64,000 bases of DNA from Gracilimonas mengyeensis (GTDB lineage Bacteria > Bacteroidota > Rhodothermia > Balneolales > Balneolaceae), in the NCBI RefSeq assembly GCF_900182705.1, contig NZ_FXTP01000013.1, positions 62,001 to 126,000 of the forward strand, read 5' to 3'. A program made the position numbers and the translations under genes. The notes under the pieces were generated by a model that had not been told where the DNA came from, made no database searches, and saw only the letters and a list, made by a program, of their open reading frames with translations. Below are positions 24,075 to 37,547 of the stretch, one piece after another (position 1 is the first letter of the stretch; each line of letters starts with the position of its first letter).

Positions 24075-24254
24075 ATGATTACAAAAGAGAAAGTAAAAAA
24101 AGAAATAGATCAGCTCTCTGAAACAGAACTGGAAAAGGTATACTTGTATTTATCTTCTCTTAATAAGACTAAAAAAACAAAATTAAATATCCGGTCTTTA
24201 AAACTAAAGGGGAAGCTGGATAATCAAAATTTGAGATCTGTAGCCCATGAGTAG
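24075..24254 (+). CDS. VapB-like antitoxin
   Basis: 59 residues from the ATG at 24075 (MITKEKVKKEIDQL). A TTG further upstream adds only a poor leader. The helical N-terminus (EIDQLSETELEKVYLYLSSL) and C-terminal tail ending LKLKGKLDNQNLRSVAHE match small antitoxins encoded with PIN toxins; the tail would wrap the toxin's active site. The stop codon overlaps the toxin start by 8 bases, the usual tight coupling. Such antitoxins normally repress their own operon. Confidence 0.78.
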   Translation: MITKEKVKKEIDQLSETELEKVYLYLSSLNKTKKTKLNIRSLKLKGKLDNQNLRSVAHE

Positions 24255-24660
24255 GGGACTTATTGATACCAATATCTTTGTATATGGGATTGATGAGGAC
24301 TCAAAATACTTCGATCAAGCAAAGAAGATCTTAGATCAGACAGATAAACAGCTGGTAACTACCTCAAAGAACTTGATCGAATTTTTAGCAGTAGTTACAA
24401 AATCCTCAGGCTATAATCTAAATGCTGAATTGGCTTTGGAGATTATTGAGGAGATCATCCAAAGTGTAGAGGTTATCTATCCTACACCGGAATCAATGGC
24501 AATTTTGTTAGACTTGGTTCATCGCTATTCCCCATCCGGTCTTAAAATCCATGACTTTGAGATAATTAGCATTAGCTTGGCACACAGCATCTATGAAGTA
24601 GCCACTTTTAACACAAAGGATTTCAAATCGATACAGGAAATTTCTCTTTCTGAGATATAG
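24247..24660 (+). CDS. PIN-domain ribonuclease toxin (VapC-like)
   Basis: 137 residues, standard PIN-toxin size. Acidic metal-binding residues are visible: D7 in LIDTNIFVYG, Glu in KNLIEFLAVV, Asp in KIHDFEI, and the final TFNTKDF where Asp completes the site. VapC toxins cleave tRNA or rRNA when freed from the antitoxin encoded just upstream. The pair sits alone between two repeat copies, a typical accessory-region placement. Confidence 0.88.
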   Translation: MSRGLIDTNIFVYGIDEDSKYFDQAKKILDQTDKQLVTTSKNLIEFLAVVTKSSGYNLNAELALEIIEEIIQSVEVIYPTPESMAILLDLVHRYSPSGLKIHDFEIISISLAHSIYEVATFNTKDFKSIQEISLSEI

Positions 24661-28726: not shown

Positions 28727-29289
28727 AAAACAGCCCATCGGTCCGACGGCTTTCAGCCCGTCCGACCGATGGGTAGAATTCGAGCACGGAAGCCTTAGCT
28801 AACGATCGGACGACTCTTTTGCAGGATTACGGGCACGGGTAGGAAAGCCATTCGTCAGATCGTGTTCGGGATGGTTTTATCGCATCTTGGGTAGATGGCT
28901 CTAAGCCCGTCTGTACAAAAGAGTGACTTATCTAATCAAACCCAATACAGGAGTAATATTAGAGGGAATACGCCGGTTACTGTTATGAAATAAGAGGCAT
29001 GTCATGCTCTTGGTGTATTGAATTATCATTCATAATCCAAAAAATAAATCACGCGCAGGTTTATATTTTATAATATTTTGAACGTTATATTTAGTAGTAT
29101 TTTTTTCTAATAAAATGATTATTGAATAAATAATTCAAGTTAAATTTTACAATTTATAGTTCATTTTATAGATTTAGGGCGAGGTACAAAAGGGGGGTAA
29201 ATATCACAATATTATACCGGGGATTTATTCTTCCTTTCTATTTGACTGTAGACATCTCATTATAATATTTATCAATCGGGGAAAAGAAA
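28727..29289. other. Non-coding gap before the ATP-grasp operon
   Basis: 563 bases. The left part holds a long hairpin (28734-28773) and looser repeats of the same words (GGCTCTAAGCCCGTC near 28900). From about 29030 the sequence turns very AT-rich and probably carries the promoter of the rightward operon at 29290. No gene is supported. Confidence 0.5.
28734..28773. repeat. Long GC-rich hairpin after the symporter gene
   Basis: A 16-bp stem with one mismatch (CCCATCGGTCCGACGG paired with the arm ending at 28773) around a short loop, 7 bases past the symporter stop. There is no T tract, so it is either a processing/stability hairpin or a dispersed palindrome rather than a classic terminator. 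Confidence 0.6.
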
Positions 29290-29985
29290 ATGATAGAGAC
29301 GCATCCATTATTGACTGAAAAAGAAATATCCAGGATTAAGTCCATTGTGGACAACTTCGAAAATGATTGGGTAGAACGTTCGGATGGTTTCTATACTCTC
29401 GGCGCATCATCCTATCTGGACGCAGCCACAGAATCTTATGAGAAGTACCAGCAAAAAGCTGACGCTATCAACACAAAACTAAGAGAGCAGCTGGGGTTTT
29501 TATATAAAAAAGTGGAGAAAGATTTAGAGGATCATATGGGGCAGAAGGTAACCGTTACAAAAAAATTTGCCGTCCCGGGATTTCACATCTGGCTGGAAAA
29601 TGGCCTTCCCAGGATACCGGGTCCCACTTATCATTTTGATGTACAGCACTTATCTATTCCCTGGAATGGGAAAGAAACCACCATCGAAGAAACCAACAGG
29701 GATGAAATGTTTACCTTTACGCTGCCCATTGAATTGCCTAAAGCCGGCGGCGGATTGGATATTTGGGACATTGATCATTCTGAAATAGCGAATCAGGAAG
29801 TCGAAGACTTAATCCCTAGGCGCAAACGATATTTTTGCACCTATAAGTTGGGGAAGATGGTCATTCATTCGGGATTAAAACTACACCGGGTTGCGGTAAC
29901 CTCGCCTATTTATGAGGGAGACCGCAGGATAACACTTCAGGGGCATGGCCGCCTTATAGACGGCCAGTGGGTGCTATACTGGTAA
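29290..29985 (+). CDS. 2-oxoglutarate/Fe(II) oxygenase-like protein
   Basis: 231 residues, no signal peptide. The double-stranded beta-helix iron site is suggested by H115-F-D117 (YHFDVQH), a distal His (H193 or H199 in MVIHSGLKLH) and an Arg after it (R212/R213 in DRRITLQGHG) to hold 2-oxoglutarate. The N-terminal 90 residues are helical. Such enzymes hydroxylate amino-acid side chains or small molecules. It leads an apparent four-gene operon with a Lys/Glu repeat protein and two ATP-grasp-type proteins, so a peptide or protein side chain is a reasonable substrate (inference). A purine-rich GGGGAAAAG precedes the ATG. The fold call comes from motifs only. Confidence 0.65.
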   Translation: MIETHPLLTEKEISRIKSIVDNFENDWVERSDGFYTLGASSYLDAATESYEKYQQKADAINTKLREQLGFLYKKVEKDLEDHMGQKVTVTKKFAVPGFHIWLENGLPRIPGPTYHFDVQHLSIPWNGKETTIEETNRDEMFTFTLPIELPKAGGGLDIWDIDHSEIANQEVEDLIPRRKRYFCTYKLGKMVIHSGLKLHRVAVTSPIYEGDRRITLQGHGRLIDGQWVLYW

Positions 29986-30059
29986 TAAAAAACAAAGGGA
30001 TTTTTCGAAAAGCAGCATCTAATCATCGGTACAATCAAAAATAAAAAACTACGAGAACT

Positions 30060-30803
30060 ATGAATTACACAAAAAGAGAACTCAAAGATAAAAACGTTAA
30101 GGAATTACGCGATATAGCCAAAAAACTGGATCATGATGCCGTAACGGGGTACAGCGACATGAAAAAATCTGAACTCGTTGAGGCCATATTGAAGGCTCAG
30201 AAATCAGCAGCAGGAGATTTAGATATTAAACGACTCGAAGGCGTAATCCGGGAAGTAGTCCGGGCTGAACTGGACAGATATCTGGAAGACCGTTTGCGGG
30301 AGTTTATCCCAAAGTTTGTTAAGGAGAAGACTCCGGATAAGCTCTTTCAGCCTGAAGGCAAGAACTTCCCTGAAAAGAATGTGAAGGAGGAACGGGAAGG
30401 TAAAACCAAAGGGGAAAAAGAAGGTAAAGGCGAGAAAGAAAAAGCCGAGAAGGAAGGCAAGGCAGAAAAGGAGAAGGCCGAGAAAGAGGGCAAGAGTGAA
30501 AAAGAAAAAGCCGAAAAAGAGGGTAAAAGCGAAAAAGAGAAATCAGAGAAAGAAGGTAAGGGAGAGAAAGAGAAATCGGAGCATGAAGGTGGATTTCAGC
30601 CGGGCAATTTCTTTGATCCCAGCGATCTGAATAATAAAATTGGACGGGTACAGGCATCCCTTTCTGAGCAACAGGTGACCTTGCAGCGGCTTGAGCATTT
30701 TATAAAACAAAGTTTACGTCCCGATCTGAATAAAGGCGCCCTGAGAAATGAACCTGATTATGACGATAACGATGACGTGGATAAAGTGAGTGAAGGCCGG
30801 TAA
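30060..30803 (+). CDS. Lys/Glu repeat protein with Rho_N/SAP-like N-terminus (candidate modification substrate)
   Basis: 247 residues. Residues 5-47 resemble the Rho_N/SAP-type helical domain (KELRDIAKKLDHDAVTGYS..KKSELVEAIL). Residues 55-95 form an amphipathic helix. Residues 119-173 are five 11-residue repeats of the form EKEGKxEKEKx (x is A, S or G). The C-terminal 70 residues include a coiled helix (VQASLSEQQVTLQRLEHF) and an acidic end (DYDDNDDVD). No membrane segment or signal peptide. The gene sits 74 bases after the oxygenase gene and 5 bases before the degenerate ATP-grasp gene. The Lys/Glu array offers many paired side chains for an ATP-grasp ligase; that role is inference. Alternatively it is a charged single-helix scaffold or nucleic-acid binder. 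Confidence 0.75.
   Translation: MNYTKRELKDKNVKELRDIAKKLDHDAVTGYSDMKKSELVEAILKAQKSAAGDLDIKRLEGVIREVVRAELDRYLEDRLREFIPKFVKEKTPDKLFQPEGKNFPEKNVKEEREGKTKGEKEGKGEKEKAEKEGKAEKEKAEKEGKSEKEKAEKEGKSEKEKSEKEGKGEKEKSEHEGGFQPGNFFDPSDLNNKIGRVQASLSEQQVTLQRLEHFIKQSLRPDLNKGALRNEPDYDDNDDVDKVSEGR
30414..30578 (+). repeat. 33-bp in-frame tandem repeat, five units
   Basis: Encodes the five EKEGKxEKEKx units (residues 119-173) of the protein at 30060. Units match exactly at protein level except for the variable Ala/Ser/Gly positions, while codons differ (gag/gaa, aag/aaa). The array has therefore been held by selection or is not brand new. Confidence 0.85.
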
Positions 30804-30808
30804 GGTGT

Positions 30809-31522
30809 ATGATATCATCAAGCGAAAAAGAGCTGCTCATTCTTGCCGAAGATTCAGATCCAAGTGCAGAGTGGGCGGTTCATTATCTAAAAAAACTCGA
30901 TTTTTGCAGGGTTCGGTTGGTTACCCATGGCCAGCTGGCCTCTGCAAAAAATTGGGTTCACCGGGTGAATAAAAACTCTGCTACTTTCAATGGGGTGCTT
31001 TCTAACGGAACTCCTTTATTCAGAGATCAGACCACAGGAGGCATAAATCGTCTAAAACAAATTCCATTTAAATTGGAGCACCCTGTGGATGACCAGGATT
31101 ATGACTATGCCGTCCATGAAATGACCACTTTTTTTGTCAGTGCTTTGGAAGCTATGCCAGGGGCGTGGATCAATGCGGCAGGTCCACGCAGCATTGCGGG
31201 AAACTGGCGGTCTAAACAGGAGTGGCATATCCTGGCAGCAAGAGCGGGATTAAAGACTTACCGTTTATCTCTGGATGATTTATATCCACCGGAGAAAGAG
31301 AGTTCATTGATTGTGTATCAAGGGAAGACTTATGGAGGAGAGTATCCCCCTGAAGTTAAAGAACAGTGCATTCGTCTTGCAAACCTGACAGGCCATACTA
31401 TGTTGGGCATAAGCCTTGAGCCCACTATCGAGGGATGGTTTTTTAATGGTGCCGCGCCTATTCCGGATTTGGAAACAGGGGGAGTGCCCCTGCTTGCGGA
31501 TATTGCAAAAAACGTGTTATAA
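30809..31522 (+). CDS. Degenerate (pseudo) ATP-grasp protein, paralogue of the next gene
   Basis: 237 residues. It shows no complete known domain alone but aligns in three blocks with the ATP-grasp ligase encoded next. Block 1 is an N-terminal pre-ATP-grasp part (LLILAEDSDPSAEWAVHYL). Block 2 is AWINAAGPRSIAGNWRSKQEWHILAARAGLKT (119-150) against ALVVNPADGISTNYSKPYQLQKIQEAGFSIPD. Block 3 is PEVKEQCIRLANLTGHTMLGISLEPTIEGWFFNGA (181-215) against DEVEEKCVKLTKALGLVISGIDFKHHPDGAYYCLEVN. The middle carrying the ATP-binding Lys is missing, and the metal-binding E-x-N has become N-G-A. It is thus probably a non-catalytic partner or substrate binder. Gaps of 5 bases upstream and 12 downstream mark a tight operon. 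Confidence 0.65.
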   Translation: MISSSEKELLILAEDSDPSAEWAVHYLKKLDFCRVRLVTHGQLASAKNWVHRVNKNSATFNGVLSNGTPLFRDQTTGGINRLKQIPFKLEHPVDDQDYDYAVHEMTTFFVSALEAMPGAWINAAGPRSIAGNWRSKQEWHILAARAGLKTYRLSLDDLYPPEKESSLIVYQGKTYGGEYPPEVKEQCIRLANLTGHTMLGISLEPTIEGWFFNGAAPIPDLETGGVPLLADIAKNVL

Positions 31523-31534
31523 ACTGCCTAAACT

Positions 31535-32455
31535 ATGATTGTATTATTTGGGATTCCTTCACAGCCTTCACTGACCTATATTATTAGTGCATTTGAGAAA
31601 GAGAAAGTCACTCCGGTAGTTATAAATCAGAGAGAACTGCCTTATGCACGTCTGGAAGCTTCCGTATACGATGGGGTATTTTCAGGGGTACTCAAAACTC
31701 AAAGCCAGACAGTATCTTTAGATACAGCAAGATCGGTTTATTCCAGGTTTATGGATTACCGTTATTTGCCGGCGGTGGAAAATAAATCCAATGATCATCC
31801 TCTGGCGGTGCACACCCAGCAAATTCATTCACAACTTTCTGTTTGGCTGGCTACTACCCAGGCACTGGTAGTGAACCCGGCTGATGGCATATCCACAAAT
31901 TATTCAAAGCCTTATCAGTTACAGAAGATTCAGGAAGCCGGTTTTTCTATTCCGGATACTCTGGTGACTTCCGATCCCGAAGAGGTGCAGCGGTTTAAAG
32001 AAGGACAGGGAGAGGTCATTTTTAAGTCAATCAGCAGCATACGGTCTATTGTAAAGAAGCTGAAAGCAGAAGATATGGAGCGGTTGAAGCACATCCTGTG
32101 GTGTCCGGTACAGTTTCAGCAGTATATTCCCGGGGATAATATCCGCGTGCATGTGGTGGGAAATCAGTGTTTTGCTACCAGAATCACCACATCAGCTACG
32201 GTGGACTATCGCTATTCATCCAGTAATGATGATCCTGTTTTCTCTCCCATGAAACTGCCGGATGAAGTGGAAGAAAAGTGTGTAAAATTAACCAAAGCAC
32301 TTGGATTAGTTATTTCGGGCATTGATTTCAAACACCATCCGGATGGTGCGTACTATTGCCTGGAAGTAAATCCAACACCGGCATTTTCCTATTACGAGTC
32401 CCGCACCGATCAACCCATAAGCACAGCCATTGCTCAATTGTTGATGGAAGTTTGA
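31535..32455 (+). CDS. RimK-like ATP-grasp ligase
   Basis: 306 residues. N-terminal pre-ATP-grasp domain (1-115), then the ATP-grasp fold: K164 in VIFKSISS for ATP, hinge region FQQYIPGDNIRVHVVG (194-209), D264 in GIDFK, and the metal pair E277/N279 in LEVNP. Relatives join a carboxylate, activated as acyl phosphate, to an amine or hydroxyl. Members acting on peptides include RimK and the graspetide ligases. It is the last gene of the 29290-32455 operon and its only complete ligase. I cannot assign a substrate; the neighbouring Lys/Glu repeat protein is the obvious candidate. Downstream lies a small hairpin (32529-32548). Confidence 0.85.
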   Translation: MIVLFGIPSQPSLTYIISAFEKEKVTPVVINQRELPYARLEASVYDGVFSGVLKTQSQTVSLDTARSVYSRFMDYRYLPAVENKSNDHPLAVHTQQIHSQLSVWLATTQALVVNPADGISTNYSKPYQLQKIQEAGFSIPDTLVTSDPEEVQRFKEGQGEVIFKSISSIRSIVKKLKAEDMERLKHILWCPVQFQQYIPGDNIRVHVVGNQCFATRITTSATVDYRYSSSNDDPVFSPMKLPDEVEEKCVKLTKALGLVISGIDFKHHPDGAYYCLEVNPTPAFSYYESRTDQPISTAIAQLLMEV

Positions 32456-32682: not shown

Positions 32683-34197
32683 TTATTGTCGCCAGAAAGC
32701 AGGCGAGAAAATAATAAGTACGGTAAAGATCTCAAGGCGACCGACCATCATCAGTAAAATGAGCACCCATTTACCCAAAATCGGCAAACCGGCGAAATTG
32801 TCGGTCGGACCAAAATCACCCCAACCGGGACCAATATTACCAATAGCGGCAATGCTGGCGCCAATGGAGGAGAGGATATCATAGCCAAAAAGACTGATGA
32901 TGAAAGCCCCGGTGGCAAAGATGAAAATATACAGGATAAAGAAGCTTAGTACCGTGCGCTGTATGTTCTGGCTGATGGCCTGGTCGCCAATGCGTACAGG
33001 GAGAATGGCTTTGGGATGAACAATTTGCTTGATCTCCCGGACCGTGTTGCGAATCAGTATCATCCAGCGAATCATTTTGATACCGCCTCCGGTAGAACCC
33101 GCACAACCTCCGGTGAAAAACAGCAGGAATAAGAAAAAGGCTCCAATGGAATTCCATAACTCATAGTCATTCGTTCCAAAGCCCGTACTGGTGACGATAG
33201 AGACTACCTGGAAAGCGCCGTAACGAAGCGCATCAAGAATGGAGTAGTTGTTGATTATCCAAAGCGAAGATGATACAACTACAATCCCAATAAAGATTAC
33301 CAGCGAGTAGAAACGGAGTTCACGGTTGGCAAAAAACAGCCTACGATCTCCCCGGAATAACCGAAAGTGCAGCGCAAAGTTAACCCCCGCCAAAAACATA
33401 AAAACGGTTATCACCCAATCAATATAAGCCGAGTCAAAGGCTTCCACGCTGGCGTTTTTGGTGGAAAAACCGCCGGTAGCCATCGTGGCAAAGGCATGGT
33501 TAATGGCTTCAAACCAATCCATGGAGGGATGCACCCACAGTAAAAGAAACTCAATGAAAGTGAACGCCACATACACGCCCCAGAGTAACTTGGCCGTTTC
33601 CTGTACGCGTGGAGTAAGTTTGTCGGCGGTAGGACCGGGAGACTCGGCCTGGAATAGCTGCATACCACCAATGCCCAAAAGCGGCAAAATAGCTAGCGAA
33701 AGTACGATGATTCCCATTCCGCCCAGCCAGTGGGCCAATGAGCGCCAGAAAAGGAAACTTTTGGGAATATCTTCGATCTTGGGGTTTTCCCAACCGGTGC
33801 TGGTGGTTCCACCCAATACAGTGGATCCGGTGGTGGTGAGGCCGCTCATGGTTTCAAAAACGGCATCGGTGAAAGAGGGAAGTACACCGGAGATAATAAA
33901 AGGCAAAGCACCCACCAAGGAAAGAGACAGCCAGGTAAGGCTTACAATCAGAAAACCTTCGCGAATACGAATTTCCTGTTGGGGTTTGAACATGTACCAC
34001 ATCAACCCGCCAAAACCGAAGGCGATGCCGGCTGATATCACAAAAGAGTGCCAGGTATCGGAACCGTACACCAGGTCAATGATGGCAGGGGTAAGCAGGG
34101 CAAAGCCCATAAAGAAAATGAAAGCACCCAGAACGCCCAATACCACGGTAAAATGGATATTGGCTCTGGGAGTCGGATTGCTTGAGACTAATGCCAT
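32683..34197 (-). CDS. trkH: TrkH-family potassium uptake channel subunit
   Basis: 504 residues, about ten membrane segments. The four pore-loop repeats that bind K+ can be seen: TGLTTTGSTV, ATMATGGFSTK, VTSTGFGTND and AAIGNIGPG. With the cytoplasmic TrkA gating ring it imports K+. It is intact, unlike the KtrB-like gene further right. The start overlaps the trkA stop by one base (TAATG), so the two are translationally coupled. Confidence 0.95.
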   Translation of the reverse strand: MALVSSNPTPRANIHFTVVLGVLGAFIFFMGFALLTPAIIDLVYGSDTWHSFVISAGIAFGFGGLMWYMFKPQQEIRIREGFLIVSLTWLSLSLVGALPFIISGVLPSFTDAVFETMSGLTTTGSTVLGGTTSTGWENPKIEDIPKSFLFWRSLAHWLGGMGIIVLSLAILPLLGIGGMQLFQAESPGPTADKLTPRVQETAKLLWGVYVAFTFIEFLLLWVHPSMDWFEAINHAFATMATGGFSTKNASVEAFDSAYIDWVITVFMFLAGVNFALHFRLFRGDRRLFFANRELRFYSLVIFIGIVVVSSSLWIINNYSILDALRYGAFQVVSIVTSTGFGTNDYELWNSIGAFFLFLLFFTGGCAGSTGGGIKMIRWMILIRNTVREIKQIVHPKAILPVRIGDQAISQNIQRTVLSFFILYIFIFATGAFIISLFGYDILSSIGASIAAIGNIGPGWGDFGPTDNFAGLPILGKWVLILLMMVGRLEIFTVLIIFSPAFWRQ

Positions 34198-35687: not shown

Positions 35688-37547
35688 ATGCAATTACCGA
35701 AGCACTGGAAACGACTTTTTATTGAACTGTTAGTTCAGTTTAAGCAACTAAAAAAACGATTCAGAAACTGGTTTCAGGACGTAGAAGTTGAACTCTACGA
35801 CCTGAATAAAGTAGCTGAGCCATATGTTCACTATTTCAATTTCCTGTTGGTGATTATGGCTATGGCCAGTATCATCGCTTCCGAAGGCTTTCAGTTGCCC
35901 GAACCTTACCTGAGTTGGAACTGGTACCTGGAGTTTGGCATTCTTTCAGGCTTCATACTTACCTATGTATTACGGCTCTTCCTTACCTCAAAACGCTGGT
36001 CGCTTATCCGCAGCCGTAAATTCGAGTCATTACTGGTGGTGCTTTTAGTACTATTCGGTTTCCTGATGTTGGTTGATCAGCATGATGTGGCGATATATCT
36101 GGAGGATTTGTTTGGGCTTTCGCGTTTTATGCCGGTATTGGTACTCCTCACCAAAATCTACCTGATCATACTGATTGTGATAAAAACAATCAGGGCGGCA
36201 CCTATTATTATTTCCCTTAAAAAGAAACCCACACAGCTGGTGGCCTACAGTTTTGTGTCGGTGATTATATTTGGAGCTTTGTTACTGATGACCCCCAGTT
36301 CCACGGTAGATGGTCAGGGATTGAACTGGATTGACGCCTTATTTACCTCAACCAGTGCCGTTTGTGTAACCGGTCTGATTGTCGTGGATACGGCCACACA
36401 TCTTACTTTTTTTGGACAAATGATTGTATTGATTCTCATTTAGATAGGGGGATTGGGCATTTTGACCATCGCCACACTCTTTGCTTTATATGTGAGTTCA
36501 GGATTGGGCGTCGGACAGATGAGCATGCTTAAAGAAACTATCGGGGAAACACGAACCAGTGAAACCTTTCGCACGATCAAGAAAATTGTGGGGATTACCT
36601 TGACGGTAGAAGCCATTGGCGTGTTGGGCTATTATTTAAGCTGGGGACATATGTTTGATGATAACGGCACCCGGCTTTTTTATTCGGTTTTTCATGCCGT
36701 ATCCGCTTTTTGTAATGCGGGTTTCTCGGTTTTTAGTAACAGTCTGGCCGATGAGGCAAACGTGCTGAACTACGGTGTCAACATCACCACCATGTTTTTA
36801 ATTGTGATTGGCGGACTTGGCTTTACCACTTTCTGGGAGCTCATAAAAGGGAATCCAGAGCGCAAGATTCGTACCTGGCAATTTTCGCTACACACCCGCA
36901 TTGTGCTCATTGCCACTGTGGTACTAATCGTGGGAGGGACCGTCGCCTTTCTGGCCTTGGAATGGGATGGCGTACTGGCCGGTTATGCTACTTCTGATAA
37001 AGTGCTCATTTCCATGTTCCAAAGCATCACCACGCGTACGGCAGGTTTTAACACAGTGGATATCGGCTCACTGGGCGTAAGCACGGTTTTGGTATTTTTA
37101 GGGTTGATGGTGATCGGAGCTTCGCCGGCTTCTACTGCAGGAGGGATGAAAACGACGACCGTGTCGGTGATGCTGATTGCCGTTTGGAGTACCATCACCG
37201 GAAAAAATAAAGTAGAATTTGCCAAGCGAACTATTGCAAAAGACACCGTATTGACAGCCATGTCCGTATTTGTGTTGGTAGCGGCCTGCTTGTTTATATT
37301 TACTTTTGCATTAACGCTTACGGAGAACTTGCCTTTCATGGATTTACTGTTTGAAGAGTTTTCAGCCTTTGCAACGGTGGGACTGTCAAGAGGCATCACC
37401 CCGGCACTTACGGATGCCGGTAAAGGCATTATCATTCTTTCGATGTTCATTGGCAGGGTGGGCATAGTAACCCTGGCCCTCGCTTTTGCCAAAAGCCGTA
37501 AATCCACGAAGTATACCTATCCAACAGAAAGTGTAATTGTAGCATAA
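35688..37547 (+). pseudogene. KtrB/TrkH-family K+ channel gene interrupted by an in-frame TAG
   Basis: Two open segments in the same frame (35688-36443 and 36444-37547) are parted by one TAG at 36441-36443. The context LILI-stop-IGGLGILT matches family members that read LIQIGGLG there, so a CAG (Gln) codon has probably become TAG. The whole would be about 619 residues: about 170 N-terminal residues with four extra membrane helices (common in this phylum), then the channel with pore loops TSTSAVCVTGL, SAFCNAGFSVF, TTRTAGFNT and AFATVGLSRG. Everything after the stop remains well conserved, so the mutation is recent, the stop is read through, or the base is an error. The matching regulator (ktrA) follows 11 bases later. 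Confidence 0.85.

Follow-up and report, generated by a model that had tools for sequence, protein, structure and literature searches.

A candidate handle-directed, graspetide-type protein cross-linking cassette in Gracilimonas mengyeensis and relatives from many phyla

Organization of the locus

We analysed a 64,000-nucleotide stretch of Gracilimonas mengyeensis contig NZ_FXTP01000013.1 (the window), in which four open reading frames follow one another on the + strand with gaps of 74, 5 and 12 nt between successive genes, as a preliminary description of four tightly spaced rightward genes had reported. They encode a 2OG-Fe(II) oxygenase-like accessory protein (gene 1, 29290..29985, +, 231 aa), a candidate substrate (gene 2, 30060..30803, +, 247 aa), a truncated, catalytically dead ATP-grasp protein that would be the partner of the ligase (gene 3, 30809..31522, +, 237 aa) and an intact graspetide-type ATP-grasp ligase (gene 4, 31535..32455, +, 306 aa). 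No beta-lactamase gene was found between or beside them.

Gene 4 had been described as a complete RimK-like ligase. The ATP-grasp residues of its subfamily are indeed complete, although it is closer to graspetide synthetases than to RimK: TIGR04187 scored 160.7 bits (under its curated NCBIfam cut-off of 350), MvdC 121.2 bits (cut-off 425) and MvdD 116 bits (cut-off 475), whereas RimK scored 70 bits. The nearest solved relative is PsnB (E 8e-29), whose DFR core-binding motif, characteristic of graspetide synthetases, aligns with DYRY in gene 4 (32204..32215, +). All 30 aligned ligases contain DYRY unchanged; the alignment leaves out L036, where a stop codon interrupts the ligase, and L055, which is short. 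Intact residues together with a DxR motif are the features of graspetide ligases of the MvdC/MvdD/TgmB kind.

By sequence, gene 3 matched only the N-terminal part of TIGR04187, and weakly (E 0.011). Its AlphaFold2 model (pLDDT 90.9) has MdnB, MdnC and PsnB as top PDB matches, and the catalytic residues of the ligase are missing, in agreement with its earlier description as a degenerate ATP-grasp protein.

Gene 2 begins with a Rho_N/SAP-like domain (30078..30212, +; PF07498, E 1.8e-12, residues 7-51), followed by five EKEGKxEKEKx units of 11 residues each (30414..30578, +), which we propose as the cross-linking region. The five Lys/Glu (K/E) repeats, already reported, are borne out by a period-11 identity of 0.91, compared with 0.58 for the best of 2000 shuffles, and 13 of the 20 Lys in the units have Glu at +4. 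Codon differences between units comprise 51 synonymous and 14 non-synonymous changes, suggesting that the repeat was selected as protein, and we rejected an origin by fresh DNA slippage on these grounds. Overlooked previously was a further element, FIKQSLRPDLNKGALRNE (30699..30752, +; consensus F[IV]x4RP), which we term the handle and propose as a recognition sequence.

For gene 1, the sole Pfam match was to WelO5, weak and below the cut-off (E 8e-4), and a sequence search of the PDB gave no match. Its AlphaFold2 model (pLDDT 79.6, from 6 sequences) falls among 2OG-Fe(II) enzymes in Foldseek, with WelO5 on top (E 1e-9). All 6 aligned homologues share H115-F-D117, H199 and R213, which we infer to be the metal and 2OG ligands. 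The model and alignment thus predict a 2OG-Fe(II) oxygenase, with a double-stranded beta-helix fold, HxD...H and a 2OG-binding Arg.

Conservation of the cassette

Thirty loci from many phyla were picked by ligase patterns alone. A dead paralogue lies within about 1 kb upstream of the ligase in 28 of them (16 were not profile seeds; that of L033 is only a fragment), and a neighbouring protein bears the handle in 26, upstream in 24 and downstream in two. The ligase therefore does not occur mostly without the putative substrate. A dense K/E segment is present in 22 of these 26 proteins, so that a dense repeated-site candidate precursor adjoins the ligase at 22 of the 30 loci; four more have a sparse one. 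No handle protein was picked up by the regular expression at L033, L053 or L055, and L055 also lacks the paralogue. A further seven loci, taken from one family on the basis of the dead paralogue alone, all have tail, paralogue and ligase in that order, and in L096 the tail and the dead paralogue share one 910-aa frame.

Searching 205,091 aa of + frames with the handle pattern gave 31 matches, 28 of them in substrates (window and L022 included); one forms the end of an additional ATP-grasp protein and two are background. The F, I, R and P positions are invariant across 26 aligned tails. The conserved element is thus this handle and not an N-terminal leader of the Phhx(1,2)h type. Of the 26 loci that have it, 24 place it C-terminal to the K/E segment, while in L043 and L048 it is N-terminal to the segment; such mobility is more readily expected of a recognition element than of a modification site. 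Judged from sequence, a handle of this type is the conserved mark of the system. The Rho_N start of gene 2 had been taken to replace a leader, which does not hold: the N-terminal domains of relatives are unrelated, and the common handle is usually C-terminal. As a leader equivalent, the Rho_N domain was rejected, since it extends ribosomal protein L21 in the window's genome and is absent from the scanned substrates of relatives.

Apart from the K/E tail, the substrates have unrelated domains, namely peptidases, tyrosinase, Ig-like, TIG and Kelch, with Rho_N in the window. Peptidase domains (S8, M6, astacin-like and C13) occur in 7 of 18 scanned relatives' substrates and are absent at the window locus. 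Makarova et al. (2022; PMC8939145) propose that a peptide cut out by peptidases is the target. The K/E segment might then be a mere charged linker, and the true target either the conserved region of the handle or some protein or peptide that lacks a tail and is freed by peptidases. That several carried domains are peptidases, that the handle is the most conserved part and that four handle proteins have little K/E would all fit, but many substrates, the window's included, have no peptidase domain, proteins with no relation to one another repeatedly show K/E and KxxxD/E features, and in L043 and L048 the handle sits at the N-terminus instead. We regard a mere linker as very unlikely.

Five Mucilaginibacter/Verrucomicrobia substrates terminate exactly in GALSNE. 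RimK adds an amino acid (Glu) to ribosomal protein S6, and these endings, like the RimK-family Pfam and NCBIfam matches of gene 4, could point to a ligase that couples free amino acids, Glu or others, to substrate side chains or the C-terminus. We consider such a ligation improbable, given that gene 4 scores far higher as a graspetide synthetase, that its DYR motif matches that of PsnB, and that the C-terminal end varies among loci while the handle is kept.

The oxygenase behaves differently from the other three genes. No homologue was found beside any of the 30 ligase-found loci, and of 31 cassette genomes or records just 2 encode one anywhere; at L078 and L069 the oxygenase occurs without cassette genes nearby, and a search of plasmids led nowhere. 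The proposed four-gene set thus holds for substrate, paralogue and ligase, which recur together, and fails for the oxygenase as part of a conserved core. Its association with such ligases does stand, as in four cyanobacteria a gene 1 homologue is fused to a member of the window's ligase family. Precursors upstream of the fusion carry KEASD, KDASD and KEACD, and the protein beside the fusions has at best weak kinship to the dead paralogue (hhalign probability 22%). As far as gene content indicates, the conserved core is three genes, encoding the handle and K/E protein, the dead ATP-grasp paralogue and the ligase; their co-occurrence supports the earlier suggestion that ligase and inactive paralogue may act on the Lys/Glu repeat protein.

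In wider samples, the dead paralogue was found in 1 of 394 (the own genome), 1 of 384 and 1 of 201 (both the centre genomes) and 11 of 200, indicating that the system is rare and patchy. It had no match in plasmids and phages; for the ligase in viral contigs, one search was empty and another gave one weak locus, L056. The best plasmid match of the ligase (30%), in Megaera pPCS109, belongs to a distant cassette that also contains a second gene of ATP-grasp type, a pair of dioxygenase genes and an ORF of 41 aa bearing the handle. That second ATP-grasp protein does not match the dead-paralogue profile (E 9.8) and is 28% identical to that of L054. Separately, Pvc16_N was found in 10 of 26 genomes searched (the window's own included; 5 of the 30 locus genomes lay outside the search). 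We claim no general tie to contractile injection systems, only L028 having been seen with cassette and Pvc16_N on one contig.

Lys-to-acid spacing in the tails

Spacing was counted in 26 substrates, after dropping seven near-identical ones (L030, L036, L045, L044, L047, L049 and L052); L091, L095 and L048 were also left out of the +4 count. That count classed L028 among the sparse substrates by judgement, and the test was repeated with a density rule, by which the sparse ones are L031, L037, L038 and L041. Asp or Glu at +4 from Lys was observed 190 times against 89 expected, whereas the reverse order, acid to Lys at spacing 4, gave 108 against 89. Spacings of +1 and +5 are likewise enriched, partly as by-products of the KEx period, and in L031, L038 and L041 pooled, +5 exceeds +4. 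The K/E-poor L037 has 8 KxxxD/E against 1.4 expected, resembling KIVAD of corallotide.

These counts bear on whether the tails of separate molecules could be joined, yielding a polymer or coupling the domain that a tail carries to some other protein. Every K/E tail is dense in Lys and Glu, and a tag for attachment could well be expected to occur on unrelated domains. However, the spacing within the chain is ordered and asymmetric, the tailed protein is the only one of its kind in 14 of 14 genomes, and known precedents are intrachain, so that ligation between chains seems unlikely to us.

Proposed mechanism

Taken together, we favour, with a probability of roughly 0.65, a cassette of the graspetide kind that cross-links proteins as directed by a handle, with ligase and dead partner joining Lys to Glu/Asp in the substrate. 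The ligase, aided by the dead partner, would recognise the F[IV]x4RP handle, spend ATP to activate Glu/Asp side chains and then join nearby Lys side chains to them. The bond would most likely be a side-chain isopeptide from Lys(i) to Glu/Asp(i+4), with 18 Da lost per bond, and the product a chain of small side-chain rings within the K/E segment. In the window's genome, the gene 1 oxygenase would then probably hydroxylate the cross-linked lysines, by analogy with CorC in corallotide. Our guess at the purpose is a stiff, protease-resistant tail on a cytoplasmic or exported protein.

We give even odds to a broader, portable system, in which a short handle at either end brings a complex of ligase and paralogue to staple nearby KxxxE/D pairs on unrelated proteins, so that their tails become chains of side-chain rings, with hydroxylation optional. 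Peptidases encoded at the branch 8 loci of Makarova et al. would in that case be substrates and would not supply the peptides. The carried proteins would be peptidases, tyrosinase, Ig-like and eCIS-associated proteins, and the Rho_N protein in the window. If true, a handle able to steer Lys-Glu stapling of whichever tail it is joined to would be of use in protein engineering, and the occurrence of such tails on otherwise unrelated enzymes may explain a set of enzymes whose targets had escaped detection.

Comparison with known systems

Gene 4 shares the RimK-like ATP-grasp fold with RimK itself, but similarity is lower and the window system gives no hint of a free amino-acid substrate. With the plesiocin and microviridin synthetases PsnB, MdnB and MdnC it shares fold, ATP-grasp residues and the DxR core-binding motif; those enzymes modify short peptides that have their leader at the N-terminus, whereas the window system would modify whole proteins whose handle is mostly C-terminal, and it has an extra dead paralogue. 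According to the available part of one report, ThfB still works when its leader is relocated to the C-terminus (PMC13003496); the window system may hold a natural C-terminal graspetide recognition sequence, which that text presents as an engineering result.

On its described features, the family appears to be branch 8 of Makarova et al. (PMC8939145). As outlined there, branch 8 has a truncated inactive ATP-grasp, several peptidase families and a wide spread, and branches 7 and 8 are listed without detectable precursors. The first trait is present at 28 of the 30 loci, for the window protein by model, and diverse peptidases are found in relatives, not at the window locus. The excerpted account sees these peptidases as makers of peptides from elsewhere, whereas here they are parts of tailed candidate substrates. 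If the family is branch 8, the missing substrates would be folded proteins with a K/E-rich tail and handle, in plain sight.

The preliminary description recognised no described system; this no longer stands, as the truncated inactive ATP-grasp is noted for branch 8 (PMC8939145) and corallotide follows the same logic (2026; PMC13097080). In the sections of the latter report consulted, corallotide has five KxxxD isopeptides and a 2OG oxygenase and constitutes graspetide group 15 (CorA-D), which is given as confined to Corallococcus. The oxygenase, beta-lactamase, large precursor and ligase in Corallococcus that define this group are not the set found at the window. Corallotide resembles the window system in that its large precursor combines an N-terminal domain with five repeated sites; the two also share a TIGR04187-type ligase, a divergent 2OG-Fe(II) oxygenase and a partner protein, and the KxxxD spacing of corallotide is near the KxxxE/D of the window. 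It differs, on the same account, in that the partner CorD has a beta-lactamase fold where the window has a dead ATP-grasp paralogue, and CorC belongs to PF13640 where the window oxygenase is WelO5-like, a different subfamily; the window repeats are K/E-dense, unlike those of corallotide, for which these sections do not mention an F[IV]x4RP handle. Corallotide, as described there, is a close precedent for the window system, and what is apparently new in this analysis is the set of candidate substrates, the movable nature of the handle and the ligase-oxygenase fusions.

A complete ligase, its dead paralogue and a tailed repeat protein

All four genes of the preliminary description, with their order, spacing and five 11-residue repeats, were confirmed on the window DNA. 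Gene 4 (31535-32455, +), proposed as a complete ATP-grasp ligase, indeed encodes one, of the graspetide type; its closest relative in the PDB is PsnB, the plesiocin synthetase, and it falls short of the cut-offs curated for the named ligase families. The protein of gene 3 (30809-31522, +) was rightly called a degenerate ATP-grasp: it keeps the ligase fold, with MdnB, MdnC and PsnB as top Foldseek matches of its AlphaFold2 model (pLDDT 90.9), and lacks the conserved catalytic residues of graspetide-type ligases. Gene 1 (29290-29985, +) adopts a WelO5-like fold in which HxD, the distal His and Arg are retained. Gene 2 (30060-30803, +), the candidate substrate, holds Rho_N, the K/E repeats, in which Glu stands four residues after 13 of the 20 Lys, and a previously missed tail, FIKQSLRPDLNKGALRNE. 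Elsewhere in the same genome, ribosomal protein L21 bears a C-terminal Rho_N/SAP extension (L058:1495-1989, -).

Further along the window, a complete TrkH (32683-34197, -) precedes a second TrkH-like potassium transporter (35688-37547, +) in two successive ORFs, 35688-36440 matching the start of the TrkH model and 36453-37547 the remainder, which is either a split gene or a frameshift. A VapC-family PIN ribonuclease, of a type found in toxin-antitoxin pairs, lies at 24247-24660 (+).

The cassette in other phyla

Among 57 relatives searched, a strong match to the ligase came from the window's genome alone; a second genome had a 32% match and the rest mostly weak RimK-type matches. The dead paralogue was not found outside the window's genome among 394 genomes of its phylum. 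GC is 0.33 upstream of the cassette (29000-29499) versus about 0.5 in the preceding gene, and the cassette looks horizontally acquired.

An alignment of the window ligase with the Megaera pPCS109 ligase was scanned against one genome per species (about 85,000 species), a search blind to the other cassette genes. It returned 30 loci from Actinomycetota, Alpha-, Gamma- and Deltaproteobacteria, Bacteroidota, Cyanobacteria, Nitrospira, Acidobacteria, Verrucomicrobia and others, one being from a euryarchaeal MAG. A dead paralogue lies upstream of the ligase, on the same strand and within about 1 kb, in 28 of the 30 (13 were picked up by the window's protein in a simple blastp search, the others by profile). 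It was seen only as a C-terminal piece at L033; L054 has a weakly matching paralogue-like protein (E 0.0012) downstream of the ligase, and none was found near the L055 ligase. DYRY, SKPxQ, a second Lys, Asp, Glu and Asn are kept in all 30 aligned ligases (window, the L022 locus and 28 of the scan loci), the last three presumably being the ATP-grasp metal ligands.

The dead-paralogue profile was also searched against 200 genomes of the Fibrisoma/Spirosoma family. Four of the 11 matches were known before; the seven new loci, which are related to some sampled earlier, all show the order tail, paralogue, ligase, each with a K/E-dense segment. In Spirosoma luteum (L036, 5989-6960), a stop codon interrupts the ligase frame while tail and paralogue are intact, reflecting either a decayed gene or a sequencing error.

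Two cassettes lie close to further oxidative enzymes, P450-like and animal haem peroxidase-like proteins in one (L026:5220-8124, -) and a DyP-type peroxidase in the other (L050:1843-3453, +), which may be chance. The contig of the euryarchaeal cassette (L028) carries contractile-injection genes: Tail_P2_I and two eCIS_core proteins adjoin it, and Pvc16_N lies about 18 kb off.

A shared handle on diverse candidate substrates

In 24 of the 30 loci, the ORF immediately upstream of the dead paralogue has F[IV]x4RP in its tail; in L043 and L048 the handle protein is downstream of the ligase, with the motif near its N-terminus. All 26 aligned tails keep F, I, R and P unchanged. The expression was defined after viewing the tails, and as a control we scanned every plus-strand frame of 30 aa or longer in the vicinity of the 32 loci (205,091 aa). 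Of 31 matches, 26 were in these substrates; the window and L022 gave one each, another sits at the end of L054's second ATP-grasp protein, and two lie elsewhere. Long frames at other loci do give chance matches. A variant, FTEPAERT, is all that L053 shows, and no match was found near the L033 and L055 ligases. An ORF at L055:4396-4926, with three EKKKxELE units and no handle, lies near that locus's family ligase. Because its position changes between substrates, the handle is favoured as a recognition rather than a modification site. The tail profile found exactly one tailed protein in each of 14 genomes; recovery of the cassette's own protein is by construction, and the informative part is the lack of a second.

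What the substrates share is the handle and a K/E-rich segment preceding it. Pfam recognised a domain in 12 of 18 relatives' substrates scanned and none in six: subtilase (L029, L093), M6 peptidase (L094, L097), astacin-like (L049), C13 (L046, L051), tyrosinase (L039), TIG (L040), Ig-like (L028), DUF6519 (L032) and Kelch (L041). K+E reaches at least 40% over the best 40 residues in 20 of 24 upstream substrates; those of L043 and L048 are K/E-rich on inspection, and L031, L037, L038 and L041 are sparse.

Across 26 substrates, Lys is followed by Asp/Glu at +4 190 times versus 89 in shuffles (reverse order, 108 versus 89). Spacings of +1 (242 versus 91) and +5 (167 versus 89) are also enriched, and KK is almost missing (1 versus 73). 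Since K/E-rich segments have a KEx period, +4 is hard to tell from +1 there. The four sparse substrates are helpful here: together they gave 15 versus 4.1 at +4, a count reached by 0 of 2000 shuffles; this signal is driven by L037 (8 versus 1.4), and in the other three +5 beats +4.

The oxygenase and cyanobacterial fusions

Co-occurrence held for the handle protein, dead paralogue and ligase but not for the oxygenase, which was not seen beside the other 30 ligases. An oxygenase homologue occurs anywhere in only two of 31 cassette genomes or records, one being a ligase-oxygenase fusion in Amazonocrinis. The other 393 genomes of the window's phylum contain four weak homologues (best E 2.8e-9), and the loci of the three that were inspected lacked cassette parts.

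Among 292 cyanobacterial genomes, Amazonocrinis included, five have the oxygenase, fused in four to an ATP-grasp of the window's ligase family (ligase profile E about 1e-53). A 262-270 aa protein adjoins the fusion, and its relationship to the dead paralogue is doubtful. A conserved precursor, about 130-150 aa long, is encoded upstream at three of the four fusion loci; these precursors show an N-terminal stretch resembling, by eye, a signal peptide, a handle variant (FIQDTFRR or FIQDSFRR) ahead of the core, and KEASD, KDASD or KEACD. In the fifth cyanobacterium (L078) and an acidobacterial contig (L069), the stretch read held the oxygenase without ligase or paralogue. Fusion and small precursor (L068, L075-L077) look like a separate graspetide-like family.

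Possible mechanism and relation to known systems

The simplest view is that the dead paralogue would be a substrate-holding partner of the ligase. Two observations fit this role without proving it: tail and paralogue share a single 910-aa open frame, free of ambiguous bases, in L096, and the handle ends the second ATP-grasp protein of L054. ThfB is reported to work still with its leader moved to the C-terminus (PMC13003496).

Makarova et al. (PMC8939145) describe, for ATP-grasp branches 7 and 8, no predictable precursor and peptidases from several unrelated families; in branch 8 they also note a truncated inactive ATP-grasp. On that account the window's family matches branch 8 closely, and the dead paralogue is therefore not new. 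In a literature search of texts without supplements, neither peptidases as tailed substrates, nor the handle, nor the ligase-oxygenase fusion was found in print. Groups 34, 35 and 41 of PMC13097080, which have long or large precursors, might overlap with the window's family.

The closest worked-out case is corallotide, in which CorB forms Lys-Asp isopeptides in five KxxxD repeats, and CorC requires the cross-linked lysine, hydroxylates its delta carbon and activates CorB (PMC13097080). By analogy, genes 3 and 4 would introduce cross-links in the K/E segment, and gene 1 would hydroxylate it. Taken together, we conclude that the cassette is real, conserved and spread wide but thin; its enzyme is graspetide-like and its chemistry probably so, and it is unusual in its whole-protein substrate, its handle and its dead partner.
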